This document shows, piece after piece, positions 8,327 to 42,068 of a stretch of DNA of 64,000 nt. The position numbers and the translations under genes are program-made. A model generated the notes under the pieces. It made no database searches. It saw only the letters and a list, made by a program, of their open reading frames with translations, and had not been told where the DNA came from. Source of the DNA: a virus; IMG/VR virus record IMGVR_UViG_3300023176_005537, positions 1 to 64,000 of that record, one strand, 5' to 3'. Each line of letters opens with the position of its first letter. The first letter of the stretch is position 1.

Positions 8327-8355
8327 TTGACAAAGACCCCTACATTTGCTATAAT
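8327..8355 (+). promoter_or_regulatory. Sigma70-type promoter inside the RNR terminator
   Basis: TTGACA, 17-bp spacer, TATAAT. The spacer forms the left arm of a perfect 14-bp inverted repeat and the -10 box spans the loop and the start of the right arm. RNA starting here would begin within or after the right arm. Confidence 0.75.
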
Positions 8356-8369
8356 GTAGGGGTCTTTTT
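8332..8369 (+). terminator. Intrinsic terminator of the RNR operon
   Basis: A perfect 14-bp inverted repeat (arms 8332-8345 and 8354-8367, loop TTGCTATA) ends in TTTTT. It overlaps the promoter at 8327-8355. Confidence 0.85.
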
Positions 8370-21334: not shown

Positions 21335-21363
21335 TTGACTTTTAAAGAACCCGTGAGTATAAT
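21335..21363 (+). promoter_or_regulatory. Sigma70-type promoter inside a terminator hairpin
   Basis: TTGACT, 17-bp spacer, TATAAT. The -10 box lies in the loop of the hairpin at 21348-21377, the same design as at 8327-8369. It drives the ClpP-like gene and GroEL. Confidence 0.75.
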
Positions 21364-21381
21364 AATATTCACGGGTTTTGT
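21348..21381 (+). terminator. Intrinsic terminator after the acidic head-type gene
   Basis: AACCCGTGA and TCACGGGTT form a 9-bp stem around a 12-nt loop, followed by TTGTTTT. Confidence 0.75.
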
Positions 21382-27407: not shown

Positions 27408-27455
27408 TTCAACACAAAAGGGCAAAAGCCCATTTCAAACAAAAGGAGATTTATT

Positions 27456-29083: not shown

Positions 29084-29113
29084 TTGACTGATCCTGCCAG
29101 ATCGTGCAATAAT
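29084..29113 (+). promoter_or_regulatory. Sigma70-type promoter, TTGACTGATCC family
   Basis: TTGACT, 18-bp spacer with GATCCTGCCAGATC, AATAAT. The core recurs at 31644, 32346 and 34942, with relatives at 33404 and 34216. Confidence 0.8.
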
Positions 29114-32375: not shown

Positions 32376-32413
32376 GATTGTCGTTGGTGAGAACAAACAC
32401 AGAGGAGGCTGAT

Positions 32414-33325
32414 ATGCCGCACATGACTTGGAAGTCGGAATTGGAAAAAAGAGTCGCAATCATCGAGGAGTTTCTCCGTTTTCACAATGAAAACAAGGAG
32501 TTCAACAAAGAGGCTTCGTATGGGCTACACAGGTTCCTCAAAGAAGAGGAGACTGTCTCGGTTCTTCGCGATCTGGCGGCTATCGCACCAGCAGATCACA
32601 GGATCAATGTTGCGACATACTCGGAGGACGTGTGTCCACCCCTGCACAAACGCTACATGGAGATCGGATATACAATGCGCAACGCTATTGATCAGACTTC
32701 AGGGAACCTTCAGGATTATCTGGAAGACTACAAGAAGCTGATCGCGTCGGAGGTGACATTCAGAGACAAAACACATTCTGAAGAAATGCTCGCCCTCTGG
32801 GAGCTTTTCAAAAGATCAGCCCGTGAAGGTTCCCTGAAGCCCGGAGGTGATCAATTCAAGAACATGGGGGCGGAACCAACAAAGCAGCAGCATGATGAGC
32901 TTTTCTACTACGATGGCGACAAGGTATGCCTCAAGTACAACAGTTGGGCTAACGACCAGTTTAAAACGAAGTACCAGTGGATGAGGTGTCTTTCAAAGCC
33001 AAAATACAATCAGGGTCAGACCGTTTATTTCAAGACCAACGCCCCTGTTCGCAAGGGTCGCGGCTACTGGTACAGCAGCATTACTGACGTAGAAAAAGCC
33101 GAGAGAAAGCTGGCAGAAGAGAAGGCGGCTGGTACGCTGACAAACAAACCTGCCCTTGTTATCGAGGTTCCGGAGATTGTTCCGGAGGGTGATTACCAAG
33201 GCAACCGTCTTTACAAGGTGATGCTTCCGGGGTATCCTGCTCCTGTTTGCCTCCCAGAGCGGTGCTTCAAGAAGTCTATTTCTACCAGAGGTAGGAAGAA
33301 AAACAAAAGCAATCTTCCTGCATAA
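32414..33325 (+). CDS. Accessory protein with C-terminal barrel domain, paralogue 1
   Basis: 303 residues from ATG 32414 (GAGGAGG upstream). A helical N-terminal half is followed by a domain also present in 33473: LWELFKRSAREGS, FKNMGAEPTKQQHDELFYYDG, LSKPKYNQGQTVYFKTNAPVRKG, and PALVIEVPEIVPEGDYQGNRLYKV...PAPVCLPERCFKKS. The last part is an all-beta, SH3-like region ending in a basic tail. Function unknown. Confidence 0.8.
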   Translation: MPHMTWKSELEKRVAIIEEFLRFHNENKEFNKEASYGLHRFLKEEETVSVLRDLAAIAPADHRINVATYSEDVCPPLHKRYMEIGYTMRNAIDQTSGNLQDYLEDYKKLIASEVTFRDKTHSEEMLALWELFKRSAREGSLKPGGDQFKNMGAEPTKQQHDELFYYDGDKVCLKYNSWANDQFKTKYQWMRCLSKPKYNQGQTVYFKTNAPVRKGRGYWYSSITDVEKAERKLAEEKAAGTLTNKPALVIEVPEIVPEGDYQGNRLYKVMLPGYPAPVCLPERCFKKSISTRGRKKNKSNLPA

Positions 33326-33340
33326 AAAAAGATTCACCAG

Positions 33341-33402
33341 CAAGATCAAGGGGTTGGAAACCAGAGTGCGTCAACCCCCTGATTTTGTTGAAGATCTTTT
33401 TC
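33341..33402 (+). terminator. Large terminator hairpin before paralogue 2
   Basis: ATCAAGGGGTTG and CAACCCCCTGAT form a stem around a 15-nt loop; U-rich GATCTTTTT follows. Near-identical hairpin at 34152-34214 and relatives at 38121 and 39381. Confidence 0.75.
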
Positions 33403-33403
33403 C

Positions 33404-33432
33404 TTGATCGATCCTACCAGATCGGCTATAAT
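33404..33432 (+). promoter_or_regulatory. Sigma70-type promoter, terminator-linked cassette
   Basis: TTGATC, 17-bp spacer, TATAAT, directly after the hairpin T-run. Same leader as 34216. Confidence 0.8.
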
Positions 33433-33472
33433 GGTCGTCGTTGGTGAGAACACAAATGACAAGGAGAAAAGA

Positions 33473-34138
33473 ATGTTCAGCGCAGAATACTGTAAAGCGT
33501 CGGAACGAGATCTACGAAGACTCATTGAGTCAGAGGAGGCTTTCAAAAATAAAACACACTGGGATCAAATAATCCCCCTGTGGGATCTTTTCCGTAGATC
33601 CGCACGGGAGGGTTCGATCGTACCCAGAGGCGGCTTTGCAGCCCCCAACCTCTTCGAGAACATGGGGGCGGAGCCAACAAAAGAGCAGTATGATAGGCTT
33701 TTTTACTGTGATGGAGGGCGGCTTTTCCTCCAGTATAACTCCTGCGTCACCGACTCATTCACCGACAGGTACGGGTGGATGAAGCAGCTTTCAAAGCCAA
33801 AATACAAACAGGGGCAGACGATCTACTTCAAGGCAAACGCCCCTGTTCGCAAGGGTAAGCGCGGTATCCTCCAGAAGTTGTCGCGCTGGGGCAACTTCAA
33901 CGAAGTAGAGAAAGCCGAGGAGAAGCTAGCCAAAGAGAAGGAGGCTGGCACGTTGGCAAACAAGCCCGCCCTTGTCATCGAGGTTCCGGAGATCGTCCCG
34001 GAGGGCGACTATAAAGGGAACCGTCTCTATAAGCTTGAGATTTCGGGGTATCCTGCTCCGGTGATCCTTCCAGAGAGGTGCTTCAAGAAGTCTAACACGG
34101 TCAGACGTAGGAAGAAGAAAAGCAACAAACCTTCATAA
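33473..34138 (+). CDS. Accessory protein with C-terminal barrel domain, paralogue 2
   Basis: 221 residues from ATG 33473 (AAGGAG upstream). Matches the C-terminal two-thirds of 32414 closely (LWDLFRRSAREGS, ENMGAEPTKEQYDRLFY, LSKPKYKQGQTIYFKANAPVRKG, PALVIEVPEIVPEGDYKGNRLYKL) but lacks its helical N-terminus. A tandem duplicate with its own terminator-promoter unit. Confidence 0.8.
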   Translation: MFSAEYCKASERDLRRLIESEEAFKNKTHWDQIIPLWDLFRRSAREGSIVPRGGFAAPNLFENMGAEPTKEQYDRLFYCDGGRLFLQYNSCVTDSFTDRYGWMKQLSKPKYKQGQTIYFKANAPVRKGKRGILQKLSRWGNFNEVEKAEEKLAKEKEAGTLANKPALVIEVPEIVPEGDYKGNRLYKLEISGYPAPVILPERCFKKSNTVRRRKKKSNKPS

Positions 34139-34151
34139 AAAAGATTCATCA

Positions 34152-34214
34152 GCAAGATCAAGGAGTTGGAAACCAGAGTGCGTCAACGCTTTGATTTTGT
34201 TGAAGATCTTTTTT
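34152..34214 (+). terminator. Large terminator hairpin before 34282 gene
   Basis: Near-copy of 33341-33402: AAGGAGTTG and CAACGCTTT arms, then GATCTTTTTT. Confidence 0.65.
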
Positions 34215-34215
34215 G

Positions 34216-34244
34216 TTGACCGATCCTGCCAGATCGGCTATAAT
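34216..34244 (+). promoter_or_regulatory. Sigma70-type promoter, terminator-linked cassette
   Basis: TTGACC, 17-bp spacer with GATCCTGCCAGATC, TATAAT. Spacer and leader match 33404. Confidence 0.82.
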
Positions 34245-34281
34245 GGTCGTCGTTGGTGAGAACACAAACGAGGAGGATGCG

Positions 34282-34908
34282 ATGAGCGTCAAAAAGAAGA
34301 TCAAAGAGATGAAGGATCGCGGTGGCTACAAGGCTCTCACAGAGTGGGAGCAGCGGTTCTGTGATTCTGTTCTTTCCTCCAAGTATGACTCCCTGACCTA
34401 TCGACAGGAGCCGTACTTTGAGAGGATCATGAAGAAAACCTCCCCAGAGCGTATGAATGGCCTCGCCCTCTGGCAGAGGAGCGGCGGCTACACTGAAGAA
34501 AGAAAGGCGATCGCAAAGATCGTCGCCCCTTATTACCTGCGAGGCAAGAAGTATTTCTATGACCTCGCCAAGCAAGCCCTCGAAGGGAAAGAGCTTTCCT
34601 TTGGTCAATACAAGGCTATGTGCGAGAACAAGTACGCACGAGCCATTGTAGAGGCTCACAGAGCCAAGCCAAAATACAAAGAAGGCGATCAAGTCTTCGT
34701 CACCACCAACATAAAGGGGGATTCCTCTACACAGAAGAGGGAATACTTCAGCAAAATCAGAGGTTTGCGAGGAACGCCTCTTTTTATTCTCGAAGTCAAC
34801 GCGGAGACACCCCTATCCCCCGCGAAGGGCGCGAAACAATACCGCGTTCTTCCGATCGGAGGGGAGCCAGTTTTGATTGAGGAGCGAAACCTCAAAAAGC
34901 GGAAGTAA
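34282..34908 (+). CDS. Accessory basic protein, diverged paralogue 3
   Basis: 208 residues from ATG 34282 (GAGGAGG upstream). A different helical N-terminal region, then KPKYKEGDQVFVTTN and FILEVN...YRVLPIGGEPVLIEERNLKKRK, which repeats the layout of the 32414/33473 barrel (KPKYxxGQxVYF ... PVxLPERCFKK). Basic ends. Function unknown. Confidence 0.76.
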   Translation: MSVKKKIKEMKDRGGYKALTEWEQRFCDSVLSSKYDSLTYRQEPYFERIMKKTSPERMNGLALWQRSGGYTEERKAIAKIVAPYYLRGKKYFYDLAKQALEGKELSFGQYKAMCENKYARAIVEAHRAKPKYKEGDQVFVTTNIKGDSSTQKREYFSKIRGLRGTPLFILEVNAETPLSPAKGAKQYRVLPIGGEPVLIEERNLKKRK

Positions 34909-34941
34909 ACCAAGAACTTACAAAATAGTTGAAAAAAGTTC

Positions 34942-34971
34942 TTGACTGATCCTGTCAGATCGTGCAATAAT
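34942..34971 (+). promoter_or_regulatory. Sigma70-type promoter, TTGACTGATCC family, upstream of an attenuator
   Basis: TTGACT, 18-bp spacer, AATAAT, with the UP-like CAAAATAGTTGAAAA upstream. A terminator hairpin begins 15 bp after the -10 box. Confidence 0.8.
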
Positions 34972-34985
34972 GTTTGCACATCGTC

Positions 34986-35015
34986 GGGAGTGAGATTGTC
35001 TCCTCCCATTTTTTT
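34986..35015 (+). terminator. Leader terminator/attenuator before the MoxR gene
   Basis: GGGAGtGAGA-ttg-TCTCCTCCC, a strong stem with one bulge, followed by ATTTTTTT. It lies between promoter 34942 and ATG 35043, so transcripts must read through it to reach the MoxR gene. Confidence 0.72.
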
Positions 35016-35042
35016 CAAGCCATTCTTTCTAGGAGAAACATC

Positions 35043-36092
35043 ATGGCTATTGATTTCAAAACCTTCAATTCCGTCGTCCCCCATGTTGTCGCAGACCTCA
35101 AACCCGTCCTGATCCGTGGTAGACACGGGGTCGGAAAGTCCGAGACCGTCTATCAGATCGCAGAAAAGATCGGCCTGCCCGTGGTGGAGCGTCGTGCTTC
35201 TCAAATGACCGAGGGCGATCTGATCGGATTGCCCGTCGTGGACGGAGAAGCTACAAGCTGGAACCCTCCCGACTGGTTCAAGACCGCTTGCAGCGAGCCT
35301 GTGGTCTTGTTTCTTGACGAGATTGATCGAGCCACCCTCGAAGTCCGTCAAGGGATCTTCGAGCTTACCGATAGCCGCAAGCTCAACGGTCACGCTCTCC
35401 ACGAGCAGACCGTGATCTTCGGTGCTATCAACGGTGGGGAGCATGGCTCCCAATACCAAGTCGGCGAGTTTGACCCTGCCGAATTGGATCGCTGGACGGT
35501 CTTCGATGTTGAGCCAAGCGTCGAGGACTGGCTCACTTGGGCAGCGGATCACGTTGACCAGAAGATCTGGGACTTCGTGAACCAGAACCGCCAACACCTC
35601 GAACACAAGGAAGACTTTGAGCCAAACAAAGTGTACCCTTCCCGACGTTCGTGGAAGCGGCTGTCCGATTGTCTCGTCAAAGGCGACCTCTTGAACGAGG
35701 CCTCGCCTGTTCTGTTCCAGTTGTCCGTAGCCTACGTCGGCTTCGAGGCTGGCGTGGCTCTCAACGACTTCATCGACCAGTACAAGAGCGTCGTTACCAT
35801 CGAGCAACTGCTCGACAAGGGCGATGTGAAGGCAACCAAAGACTTCAGCATCAACGACCACTGCGCGATGATCGAGAAGATCGACGCTGCAAAGGTGTTT
35901 GACTCCATCCTTCCTGCGGGAAGAATGAAGAACCTCGCCAAGTACTTTGTGACGCTTCCCTCCGAGGTGGCGGTCAAACTGTGGGCTCAGATGGGCTCCT
36001 CCGGTCGTCCGGTGGAGAACAGCACCGCGTTCCACAAAGAGCCGGGTGTGTCCGAGGCTTTCGTCAAAATGTACGCTTCTCAAAACAAATAA
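35043..36092 (+). CDS. MoxR-type AAA+ ATPase
   Basis: 349 residues from ATG 35043 (AGGAG upstream). Walker A GRHGVGKS (26-33), Walker B LFLDEID (89-95), sensor-like IFGAINGG, and an arginine-finger-like LDRWTVFDV. The MoxR pattern 'GDLIGLPV..GEATSWNPPDW' is present. MoxR ATPases act as chaperones with VWA proteins, remodelling or loading metal/cofactors on targets (RavA-ViaA, NorQ-NorD types). The next gene is a VWA protein, so they likely work as a pair. Confidence 0.92.
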   Translation: MAIDFKTFNSVVPHVVADLKPVLIRGRHGVGKSETVYQIAEKIGLPVVERRASQMTEGDLIGLPVVDGEATSWNPPDWFKTACSEPVVLFLDEIDRATLEVRQGIFELTDSRKLNGHALHEQTVIFGAINGGEHGSQYQVGEFDPAELDRWTVFDVEPSVEDWLTWAADHVDQKIWDFVNQNRQHLEHKEDFEPNKVYPSRRSWKRLSDCLVKGDLLNEASPVLFQLSVAYVGFEAGVALNDFIDQYKSVVTIEQLLDKGDVKATKDFSINDHCAMIEKIDAAKVFDSILPAGRMKNLAKYFVTLPSEVAVKLWAQMGSSGRPVENSTAFHKEPGVSEAFVKMYASQNK

Positions 36093-36104
36093 TCCTTTTT
36101 CCGC

Positions 36105-36134
36105 TTGACAAACGATCGGGGTTTTTGCTATAAT
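36105..36134 (+). promoter_or_regulatory. Sigma70-type promoter for the VWA gene
   Basis: TTGACA, 18-bp spacer, TATAAT; leader GGACATTGGCAAAAC similar to 29084 and 31644 transcripts. Confidence 0.82.
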
Positions 36135-36177
36135 GTGTGGACATTGGCAAAACCCCTTTCGTTTTTGGAGGATCGCT

Positions 36178-37341
36178 ATGTTCGATCTAAATGATCACAC
36201 CGCCCGTGTTCTCGTGGGTGAACCGTTCTTTGCTGCCCTGTCCCGCAGGGTGGAGAAGAGGATCAACAAGGACATCCCGACCGCTGGCGTTCGCGTCAAC
36301 GAGCGCGGGTTCTACGAGATGGTCTACAATCCGGATTTCTTCGAGACTCTCACAGACCGAGAGATCGGTGGTGTCCTCAAGCACGAGTTTTACCACCTGA
36401 TCTTCCGGCATTGCGAAGAGCGTCTCCCCGAAGGGGGCATGTCGAAGATTTGGAACATTGCCACCGATCTGGCTATCAACAGCCACCTGATCGGTGAACT
36501 GCCGGAGAATGGCTGCATTCCGGGTCAGGGGCATTTCAAGGACTATCCTGTCGGCCTCTCTTCCGAGCAGTATCTCAAAATGCTGCAAGATGATCCACGC
36601 TCCCAGTCCAGTGGTGGCGGGGAAGATGGAGAAGAAGGAGACGGTCTTCCCGATAACATGGACGATCACTCCGGCTGGGGTGGTGACAAGGACAGCGAAG
36701 ACAAAAAGGAGCAAGCCAAGCAGAGGCTCAAGGAAGCCCTCAAAGGGGCTGCTGAGGAGGCTGCGAAGCGTGACTGGGGGTCTGTGTCCAATTCCGTGCG
36801 AGAGACCGTTATGGAGGCTCTCAAGAGCCGTCTGGACTGGCGCAAGGTTCTGCGTTACTTCGTAAAGTGTTCACAGAACGCTCACAAGAAAAGCACGATC
36901 AAAAGGATCAACAAGCGGTTTCCCTACATCCACGCCGGACGTAGAGCAGACCGCGTTGCCAACGTCGCGATCTCGATTGATCAGTCCGGATCGGTGTCTG
37001 AAGAGATGCTAGCCGCGTTCTACGCGGAGTTGGACAAGCTGTCCACACTGGCAACGTTCACTGTGATCCCCTTCGACACGAGGGTAGAAGAGGAGCATGT
37101 CTTCATCTGGAAGAAGGGAATGACCCACAAGAAGGAGCGTTACCTTCACGGTGGGACTTGTTTCGACGCTCCCACCGCGTTTGTGAACGATCGTGACTTC
37201 GACGGTCACATCATCCTGACGGACATGGAGGCTCCTAAGCCTCGGCGTTCAAAGTGTCAGAGAATGTGGCTCACAACCCAAGACTGCAAAGACAGAGTGT
37301 ACTGGTCAACCCACGAGAGAATCGTCGCTATCGACGATTGA
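36178..37341 (+). CDS. VWA domain protein with metallopeptidase-like N-terminus (DUF2201 type)
   Basis: 387 residues from ATG 36178 (TGGAGG upstream). N-terminal zincin-like part with LKHEFYHLIFRH (HExxH 69-73) and IWNIATDLAINSHL; an acidic, glycine-rich linker (about 140-175); then a VWA domain with MIDAS SIDQSGSVS (DxSxS 268-272), FDTRVEE and ILTDMEAP. It is the natural partner of the MoxR ATPase. In host pathways such pairs mature metalloenzymes or protein complexes; the phage target is unknown. Confidence 0.9.
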   Translation: MFDLNDHTARVLVGEPFFAALSRRVEKRINKDIPTAGVRVNERGFYEMVYNPDFFETLTDREIGGVLKHEFYHLIFRHCEERLPEGGMSKIWNIATDLAINSHLIGELPENGCIPGQGHFKDYPVGLSSEQYLKMLQDDPRSQSSGGGEDGEEGDGLPDNMDDHSGWGGDKDSEDKKEQAKQRLKEALKGAAEEAAKRDWGSVSNSVRETVMEALKSRLDWRKVLRYFVKCSQNAHKKSTIKRINKRFPYIHAGRRADRVANVAISIDQSGSVSEEMLAAFYAELDKLSTLATFTVIPFDTRVEEEHVFIWKKGMTHKKERYLHGGTCFDAPTAFVNDRDFDGHIILTDMEAPKPRRSKCQRMWLTTQDCKDRVYWSTHERIVAIDD

Positions 37342-38017: not shown

Positions 38018-38109
38018 GAGACAGGGAATGGTGGGGGGATTTCCTTTTACTTATCGGGATGTTGCTGGCCTTTCTCTGGGTCAATTCCCTTTTCTTTTTG
38101 TCCAGATAA
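38014..38109 (+). CDS. 31-residue membrane peptide
   Basis: ATG 38014 overlaps the previous stop (ATGA). MRDREWWGDF followed by one hydrophobic helix (LLLIGMLLAFLWVNSLFFL) and SR at the end. Overlap with an upstream gene makes it likely translated; function unknown. Confidence 0.5.
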   Translation: MRDREWWGDFLLLIGMLLAFLWVNSLFFLSR

Positions 38110-38120
38110 AATATTTTCTT

Positions 38121-38186
38121 CAATGAGATCAGGGGGTTGAGAGAGCATCGGCCTCAACTCCTTGGTTTCATTGAGGATCTTTTTTG
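38121..38186 (+). terminator. Large terminator hairpin before the ardC gene
   Basis: Outer arms CAATGA/TCATTG and inner arms GTTGAG/CTCAAC, then GATCTTTTTT. Same class as 33341. Confidence 0.7.
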
Positions 38187-39935: not shown

Positions 39936-40145
39936 TTTAAAAGGAGGAATCACCTTCGAGTGAGAAATCACCTGCGGGGGCAAGAAATCACCTGTGGGTG
40001 GGCAGGAGAAACCACCTAACACCCCCACAGATACGAGAGGAGAAATCACCTGCGCCTTGCCAGAAATCACCTACGGGGGCGCGTGTTTGGAAATCATTGA
40101 AAAGTGTGGGGCTCTTAACCCCAGTAATGGCGCGGGTTTGCGGGG

Positions 40146-40177
40146 TTTTCCACAGGTTTTTCCACAGGAAATCCACA
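40146..40177 (+). other. Three phased DnaA-box-like sites
   Basis: TTTTCCACA at 40146-40154 and 40158-40166 and AAATCCACA at 40169-40177. The first two differ from the DnaA consensus TTATNCACA at one position. Starts are 12 and 11 bp apart. Confidence 0.5.
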
Positions 40178-40273
40178 GGTAATGACAAGTTCGCAAATCC
40201 CCACCAATAGGGGATTAGAGACCTGCTGGAGAAATCACCTGTACCTGTGGGAAATCACACAGGAAATCACCTG

Positions 40274-40305
40274 TGTCACGATATGACACATATGCATGGT
40301 ATAAT
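40274..40305 (+). promoter_or_regulatory. Palindrome-type promoter 1
   Basis: 15-bp palindrome TGTCACGATATGACA, 11 bp, TATAAT. No -35 match at the usual place. Precedes the repeat-flanked ORF at 40416. Confidence 0.7.
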
Positions 40306-40344
40306 AAAAGGACGAGGCAGAGGAGAAATCACCCACACACGAGA

Positions 40345-41519: not shown

Positions 41520-42023
41520 ATGAGAGTCACATTCCGCACCTACAACACCAACCTTGACGGCTTCGCAATCTCCCACTGGCTCGACGATTTGCACCAATCC
41601 GAGGCTTGCTACTGGAACATCCTTCCCCGCTGGTGCTGGGAAACCAGCACCTTCCACACCGCCACCAGCGGCTACACCTACCGCCTCATGTCCAAGCACG
41701 ACCACTGGCACATGTGGGTCTACGAAGGCGCAGACAAGGGCTTCATGGCTCAGGCGTTCCTCCCAGACTTCGGTGGCTGGGAGGTCGTAGAGGTCGAAGG
41801 CTCCTTCGGCCTGTTTGTCGGGTCTTCCGCTCTGCTTCATTACCGCGAGGTGAAGGAGGGCAGCGGCTTCTACGCAATCTCTCACACCCTCACAGACCCA
41901 GAGGCGTGGATCAAGCGCAACTGGGGGTGGATCAAGGGCGAACCTGTCCCTGTTCCCCTCCATGAGGCTCTCGCAGAGCCTGTCGTCCGTCAATGGGATC
42001 GTGACCTGTACGGGGCGCGCTGA
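41520..42023 (+). CDS. Trp-rich protein, unknown
   Basis: 167 residues from ATG 41520 (ATGGAG upstream). Beta-rich with many Trp/Tyr (EACYWNILPRWCWETSTFHTATSGYTYRL, HDHWHMWVYEG). No catalytic motif. The stop is followed directly by an exact iteron copy (42025). Confidence 0.76.
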   Translation: MRVTFRTYNTNLDGFAISHWLDDLHQSEACYWNILPRWCWETSTFHTATSGYTYRLMSKHDHWHMWVYEGADKGFMAQAFLPDFGGWEVVEVEGSFGLFVGSSALLHYREVKEGSGFYAISHTLTDPEAWIKRNWGWIKGEPVPVPLHEALAEPVVRQWDRDLYGAR

Positions 42024-42068
42024 GAAATCACCTGCACATGTGCGAAATCGCACAGGAAATCACATGTG

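Follow-up and report, generated by a model that had tools for sequence, protein, structure and literature searches.

We interrogated the 5′ leader of a MoxR-type ATPase gene in a large uncultured phage. The window analysed here covers the first 64 kb of a virus record of 156,945 bases, in which nearly all genes lie on the plus strand. The features in and around the leader are as follows.

33344–33432, plus strand: comparison module, a terminator (33344–33384) followed by a promoter (33404–33432)
34213–34908, plus strand: open frame preceding MoxR, with its own promoter at 34216–34244
34942–34971, plus strand: MoxR promoter TTGACT-N18-AATAAT, with the -35 at 34942–34947 and the -10 (AATAAT) at 34966–34971
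34978, plus strand: predicted MoxR transcription start, 7 nt past the -10, placed by standard -10-to-start spacing
34986–35007, plus strand: putative terminator hairpin GGGAG-T-GAGA-TTG-TCTC-CTCCC, beginning 14 nt past the -10
34986–34990/35003–35007 and 34992–34995/34999–35002, plus strand: stems of this hairpin, with a bulged U at 34991 and the loop TTG
35009–35015, plus strand: T7 tract, separated from the stem by a single A (35008)
35031–35036, plus strand: MoxR Shine-Dalgarno sequence AGGAGA
35043–36092, plus strand: MoxR-type AAA_5 ATPase gene (phrog_1297), whose start is kept in relatives
36105–36156, plus strand: VWA promoter TTGACA-N18-TATAAT (36105–36134), nested in a terminator hairpin (36118–36156)
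36178–37341, plus strand: DUF2201/VWA gene (phrog_1314), a unit separate from MoxR

The initial annotation had described a promoter, a hairpin, seven T residues and the MoxR ATG in this order, and each of them is present in the sequence where it was placed. Folding bears out its strong GGGAG/CTCCC hairpin and adds an upper stem, GAGA/TCTC, that it had not listed. The MoxR leader folds as a single GC-rich hairpin of 5 + 4 = 9 bp with one bulged U, at an energy of about -12 to -13 kcal/mol (-13.1 with flanks; z = -3.4), which is equalled by one of 200 shuffled sequences. Relative to the predicted start, the hairpin would extend from about +9 to +30 and the T-tract from +32 to +38, with the MoxR ATG at about +66, after a gap of 27 nt from the T7. 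Both components of an intrinsic (Rho-independent) terminator, a stable G+C-rich hairpin and a T-tract after the stem, are present in the leader. Judged by sequence and folding, the intrinsic-terminator sequence in the MoxR 5′ leader is genuine, and from it we infer termination activity. The MoxR promoter belongs to a set of four near-copies (29084, 31644, 32346 and 34942) with an almost identical spacer, which excludes a chance match to the consensus, and no consensus promoter was found between the hairpin and the ATG, including 35016–35043, as had been claimed. The palindrome GTGCAATAATGTTTGCAC surrounding the MoxR -10 has matches in unrelated sequences only. Two other arrangements were considered and rejected: the -10 does not lie within the hairpin as it does at 8332, 21346 and 36118, since the stem begins 14 nt past it, and a second, downstream hairpin occluding the Shine-Dalgarno sequence and AUG of MoxR is no better than shuffles.

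We compared the combination of hairpin and T-tract with chance using a strict scan, which replaced an earlier permissive scan whose 494 overlapping matches were uninformative. The whole 157-kb record contains 32 strict sites on both strands, versus 4, 7, 6, 4 and 4 in five dinucleotide-shuffled genomes, an approximately sixfold excess that is a guide and no proof, as several of the 32 sites are intragenic and may be noise. By a terminator score, the MoxR site ranks 11th of the 32. T runs of at least 7 number 17 on the plus strand of the 157 kb, two of them following a hairpin better than -10 kcal/mol. The MoxR hairpin with its T-tract exceeds chance.

Terminators and promoters adjoin each other in three arrangements in this record, with the terminator before, around or after the promoter. 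The terminator comes first at 33344/33404 and 39383/39443, and in weaker copies at 34156/34216 and, probably, 38108–38183. In the nested layout, seen at 8332, 21346 and 36118, the promoter -10 sits in the loop or upper stem of the terminator hairpin; at these sites (8327–8367, 21335–21379 and 36105–36156, plus strand) the hairpin forms in read-through RNA, and new RNA is without the 5′ arm. Inverted repeats that nest a promoter with a score of at least 12 are found at four promoters against 0.28 expected, and random re-pairing of upstream and downstream halves gives at most two; among relatives, nested promoter hairpins are barely above control. Only at 34986 does the terminator follow the promoter. 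The earlier contention that in other early units the promoter comes after the terminator is correct for the first of these groups and fails both for the nested sites and for the sister promoters at 29084, 31644 and 32346, which have no adjoining strict terminator.

The genes on either side bear on what the hairpin might do. After the 34213–34908 frame, only one strict sense terminator was found, the hairpin at 34986, with none in the interval from the stop at 34908 up to it. The two paralogous units preceding this frame have terminators approximately 20 nt past their stops, and the distance from the stop at 34908 to the MoxR hairpin is about 78 nt. Ribosomes suppress terminators only at a short stop-to-hairpin distance, with more than 30 nt being beyond range (PMC4824070), and the MoxR hairpin is thus outside the range of such suppression. 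Ending the upstream unit is a simpler reason for the hairpin than a regulated switch. The region from 32378 to 34908 consists of tandem related units with one promoter each, and contains direct repeats 204 and 238 nt long that are 75–78% identical. On the other side of MoxR, the VWA promoter matches the consensus at 12 of 12 positions. Since VWA is served by a promoter and terminator of its own (36105–36156), its expression is independent of the MoxR leader, and the original description of MoxR-VWA as one unit under this leader has to be abandoned.

We also looked for the elements of a regulatory switch. Only 8 nt of the MoxR RNA lie 5′ of the stem; the leader has no leader ORF and no space for an antiterminator fold, partial leader transcripts show weak folding before the hairpin is completed, and an Rfam search returned nothing relevant. 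The leader therefore has none of the classical marks of an attenuator or riboswitch, namely a leader peptide, an antiterminator fold or membership of a known RNA family. Homologues of the three families searched, Q (PF06530), Antiterm (PF03589) and NusG (PF02357), are absent from the record. The spacer between the -35 and -10 of the MoxR promoter is conserved, but it is common to three promoters without a terminator. Nothing so far points to a dedicated regulatory switch at the MoxR leader. The proposal that MoxR needs read-through would stand if the hairpin terminates, for which its structure argues, whereas the regulated switch attached to that proposal finds no counterpart in a leader peptide, an alternative fold, an Rfam family, a known antiterminator gene or conservation in relatives.

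Among viral contigs, the nearest MoxR proteins (70 loci) are 52–70% identical, and most of these relatives have a sigma-70-like promoter directly 5′ of MoxR. Of the 69 relatives' MoxR leaders scanned, a set that includes near-duplicates, none has a strict hairpin-T site in the interval from promoter to start. Two loci that a classifier had matched as post-promoter sites (L004 and L058) were rejected, their sites lying past a start codon, within coding sequence. Many relatives carry a terminator and then immediately a promoter at the MoxR/VWA boundary, the counterpart of which in the window is the nested site at 36105–36156. Some have MoxR leader stem-loops without a T-tract, and a group test of leader structure among MoxR relatives gave a weak signal (mean z -0.7, with 10 of 41 below -1.5). 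Exact searches of viral contigs for the MoxR hairpin gave no match; the phage collection contains no DNA relative of 34800–36800, with short matches to 34900–35050 at chance level, and the plasmid collection none of 34780–35043. A search of genome contigs identified two MoxR relatives, one of which (L082) has, by eye, a leader without hairpin-T. Near-identical contigs stop on either side of the MoxR leader (window 29478 and 36960). From these comparisons, the leader hairpin appears to be lineage-specific.

Stem-loops of a different kind are found in other leaders of this phage. The sequence GGGCAA-N-GCCC forms stem-loops on the plus strand at 27420, 38227, 40761, 41085, 41486, 42111, 42749, 43336 and 43860, each 9–12 nt past a promoter -10 (27402, 38210, 40746, 41070, 41471, 42095, 42731, 43319 and 43844, respectively). 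On the plus strand of the 157 kb, 9 of 14 occurrences of GGGC-N3-8-GCCC are in such leader positions (binomial P about 1e-17, a significance that is overstated because the motif was noticed before testing and the copies are partly related). The MoxR hairpin occupies a similar place, 14 nt past its -10, but differs in sequence and has an added T7, and is not a member of this family. In five of the GGGCAA-N-GCCC leaders, against 0.01 expected, GATCNAAGGAGATC puts the Shine-Dalgarno sequence between two GATC arms (40790, 41113, 42771, 43358 and 43882, plus strand). The joint leader pattern was found among viral contigs in L094 only, a contig that represents the same phage at 99.8% identity. Promoters of a second class (40746, 41070, 42095, 42731, 43319 and 43844, plus strand) lack TTGACA at the usual distance; they show a TGTCACGATCTGACA-like palindrome followed by GATCGTATAAT, and may require an activator. 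Repeated GAAATCACCTG motifs at 39960–40330 and 42020–42065, mostly non-coding, are a possible protein-binding or replication region. The record ends (about 47–625 and 155460–156034) have similar, non-identical sequence with the same hairpins, and the record is not classed as end-repeated.

By analogy, the nearest described case is the greA leader of E. coli with its short RNA GraL, where a functional terminator hairpin at +19 to +48 still allows read-through (PMC6829880). Both leaders have an intrinsic terminator directly after the promoter and no leader peptide, an arrangement that in greA gives rise to a short RNA and to read-through into the gene, and the MoxR leader has the GraL-type layout, with a terminator no more than about 50 nt from the start, a same-strand gene downstream and no leader ORF. 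In contrast to greA, the MoxR hairpin would start at about +9, the gene belongs to a phage and encodes MoxR, and termination and any autoregulation are putative. The order of promoter, intrinsic terminator and gene is also that of antitermination by AlpA and lambda Q, whose binding element is located between -35 and -10 (PMC7969949), but here no antiterminator homologue was found and the MoxR spacer recurs in promoters without a terminator. The boundary modules of related phages and of this phage (33344, 39383) similarly consist of a hairpin and T-tract adjoining a sigma-70-like promoter; however, their terminator precedes the promoter, whereas that of MoxR follows it. In T4 genes e, soc and 49, leader hairpins cover the start region and block translation (PMC3014915). 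Like these, the MoxR hairpin lies in a phage mRNA leader, past the promoter and ahead of the gene start, but a T7 tract follows it and its stem does not include the Shine-Dalgarno sequence.

The explanation we prefer, and to which we give about an even chance of being correct, is that the hairpin is a real but leaky intrinsic terminator, closing the upstream unit and at the same time attenuating MoxR, constitutively and with no sensed switch. Transcription arriving from the 34213–34908 unit would end at the hairpin. Because the hairpin lies downstream of the MoxR start, it would, if active at all, act on the MoxR RNA too: with the stem 8 nt past the predicted start, part of the transcripts from the MoxR promoter would stop at about 36–39 nt. 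MoxR is probably made only via leaky read-through, and this fraction would set a low MoxR level, as expected of a constitutive leaky attenuator. Several observations speak against this explanation. The terminator would be complete by +38, very near the start, and the single A between stem and T-tract may weaken it; three sister promoters are without an adjoining terminator, indicating no general need for an upstream terminator; and the hairpin is missing in 69 of 69 relatives' leaders, with no close relative spanning the leader.

The main rival is a leader stem-loop that works post-transcriptionally, in mRNA protection or as a U-rich translation enhancer, with the likeness to a terminator being incidental. 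It would fit the nine promoters of this phage with a GGGCAA-N-GCCC stem-loop and no T-tract, as well as the stem-loops without a T-tract in some MoxR relatives, and the hairpin may keep the Shine-Dalgarno sequence AGGAGA free from the hairpin's own 3′ arm UCUCCU, which could alternatively pair with it (-8.5 kcal/mol). We nevertheless consider this role unlikely: the MoxR hairpin differs from the GGGCAA family in sequence, a T7 immediately following a stem would seldom arise by chance given 17 such runs on the strand, and the test for structured leaders in relatives was weak. A search of the available literature for terminator-like U-rich leaders of the rnd kind found no match. An unlikely alternative to the leaky terminator is regulated antitermination, in which a phage or host factor would load at the MoxR promoter, like Q or AlpA, and let RNAP through the terminator at a defined stage of infection. 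Its layout, a promoter and then a close intrinsic terminator, is that of Q and AlpA (PMC7969949), and the spacer is conserved in four promoters; yet three of these have no terminator to overcome, the record contains no Q, Antiterm or NusG homologue (other factors would escape such a search), and the hairpin is not kept in relatives. A timed switch of a new phage type, with a factor at the GATC-rich MoxR promoter passing a terminator complete by about +38 and an RNA of roughly 38 nt made without the factor, seems to us quite improbable.

Two further readings differ from the leaky terminator in leaving MoxR unaffected. The hairpin could serve as the terminator of the upstream unit alone, with the true MoxR start elsewhere, which would agree with the finding of no other terminator after 34908. 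However, the 34942 promoter belongs to a repeated family at gene starts and 35016–35043 contains no consensus promoter, and we regard this reading as distinctly doubtful. A chance hairpin and T-run of no effect is very unlikely: although a single genome is concerned and relatives do not keep the hairpin, approximately 5 sites per shuffled genome correspond to an estimated 0.02 expected in roughly 1 kb of promoter leaders.

If the hairpin terminates, promoter and terminator would be very tightly spaced, with the hairpin from about +9 and the end at about +38, and the site would provide a compact insulation of one phage gene while the next stays low. The occurrence of terminators before, around and after promoters, together with a common 5′ stem-loop on many early mRNAs, may matter more than the MoxR site.
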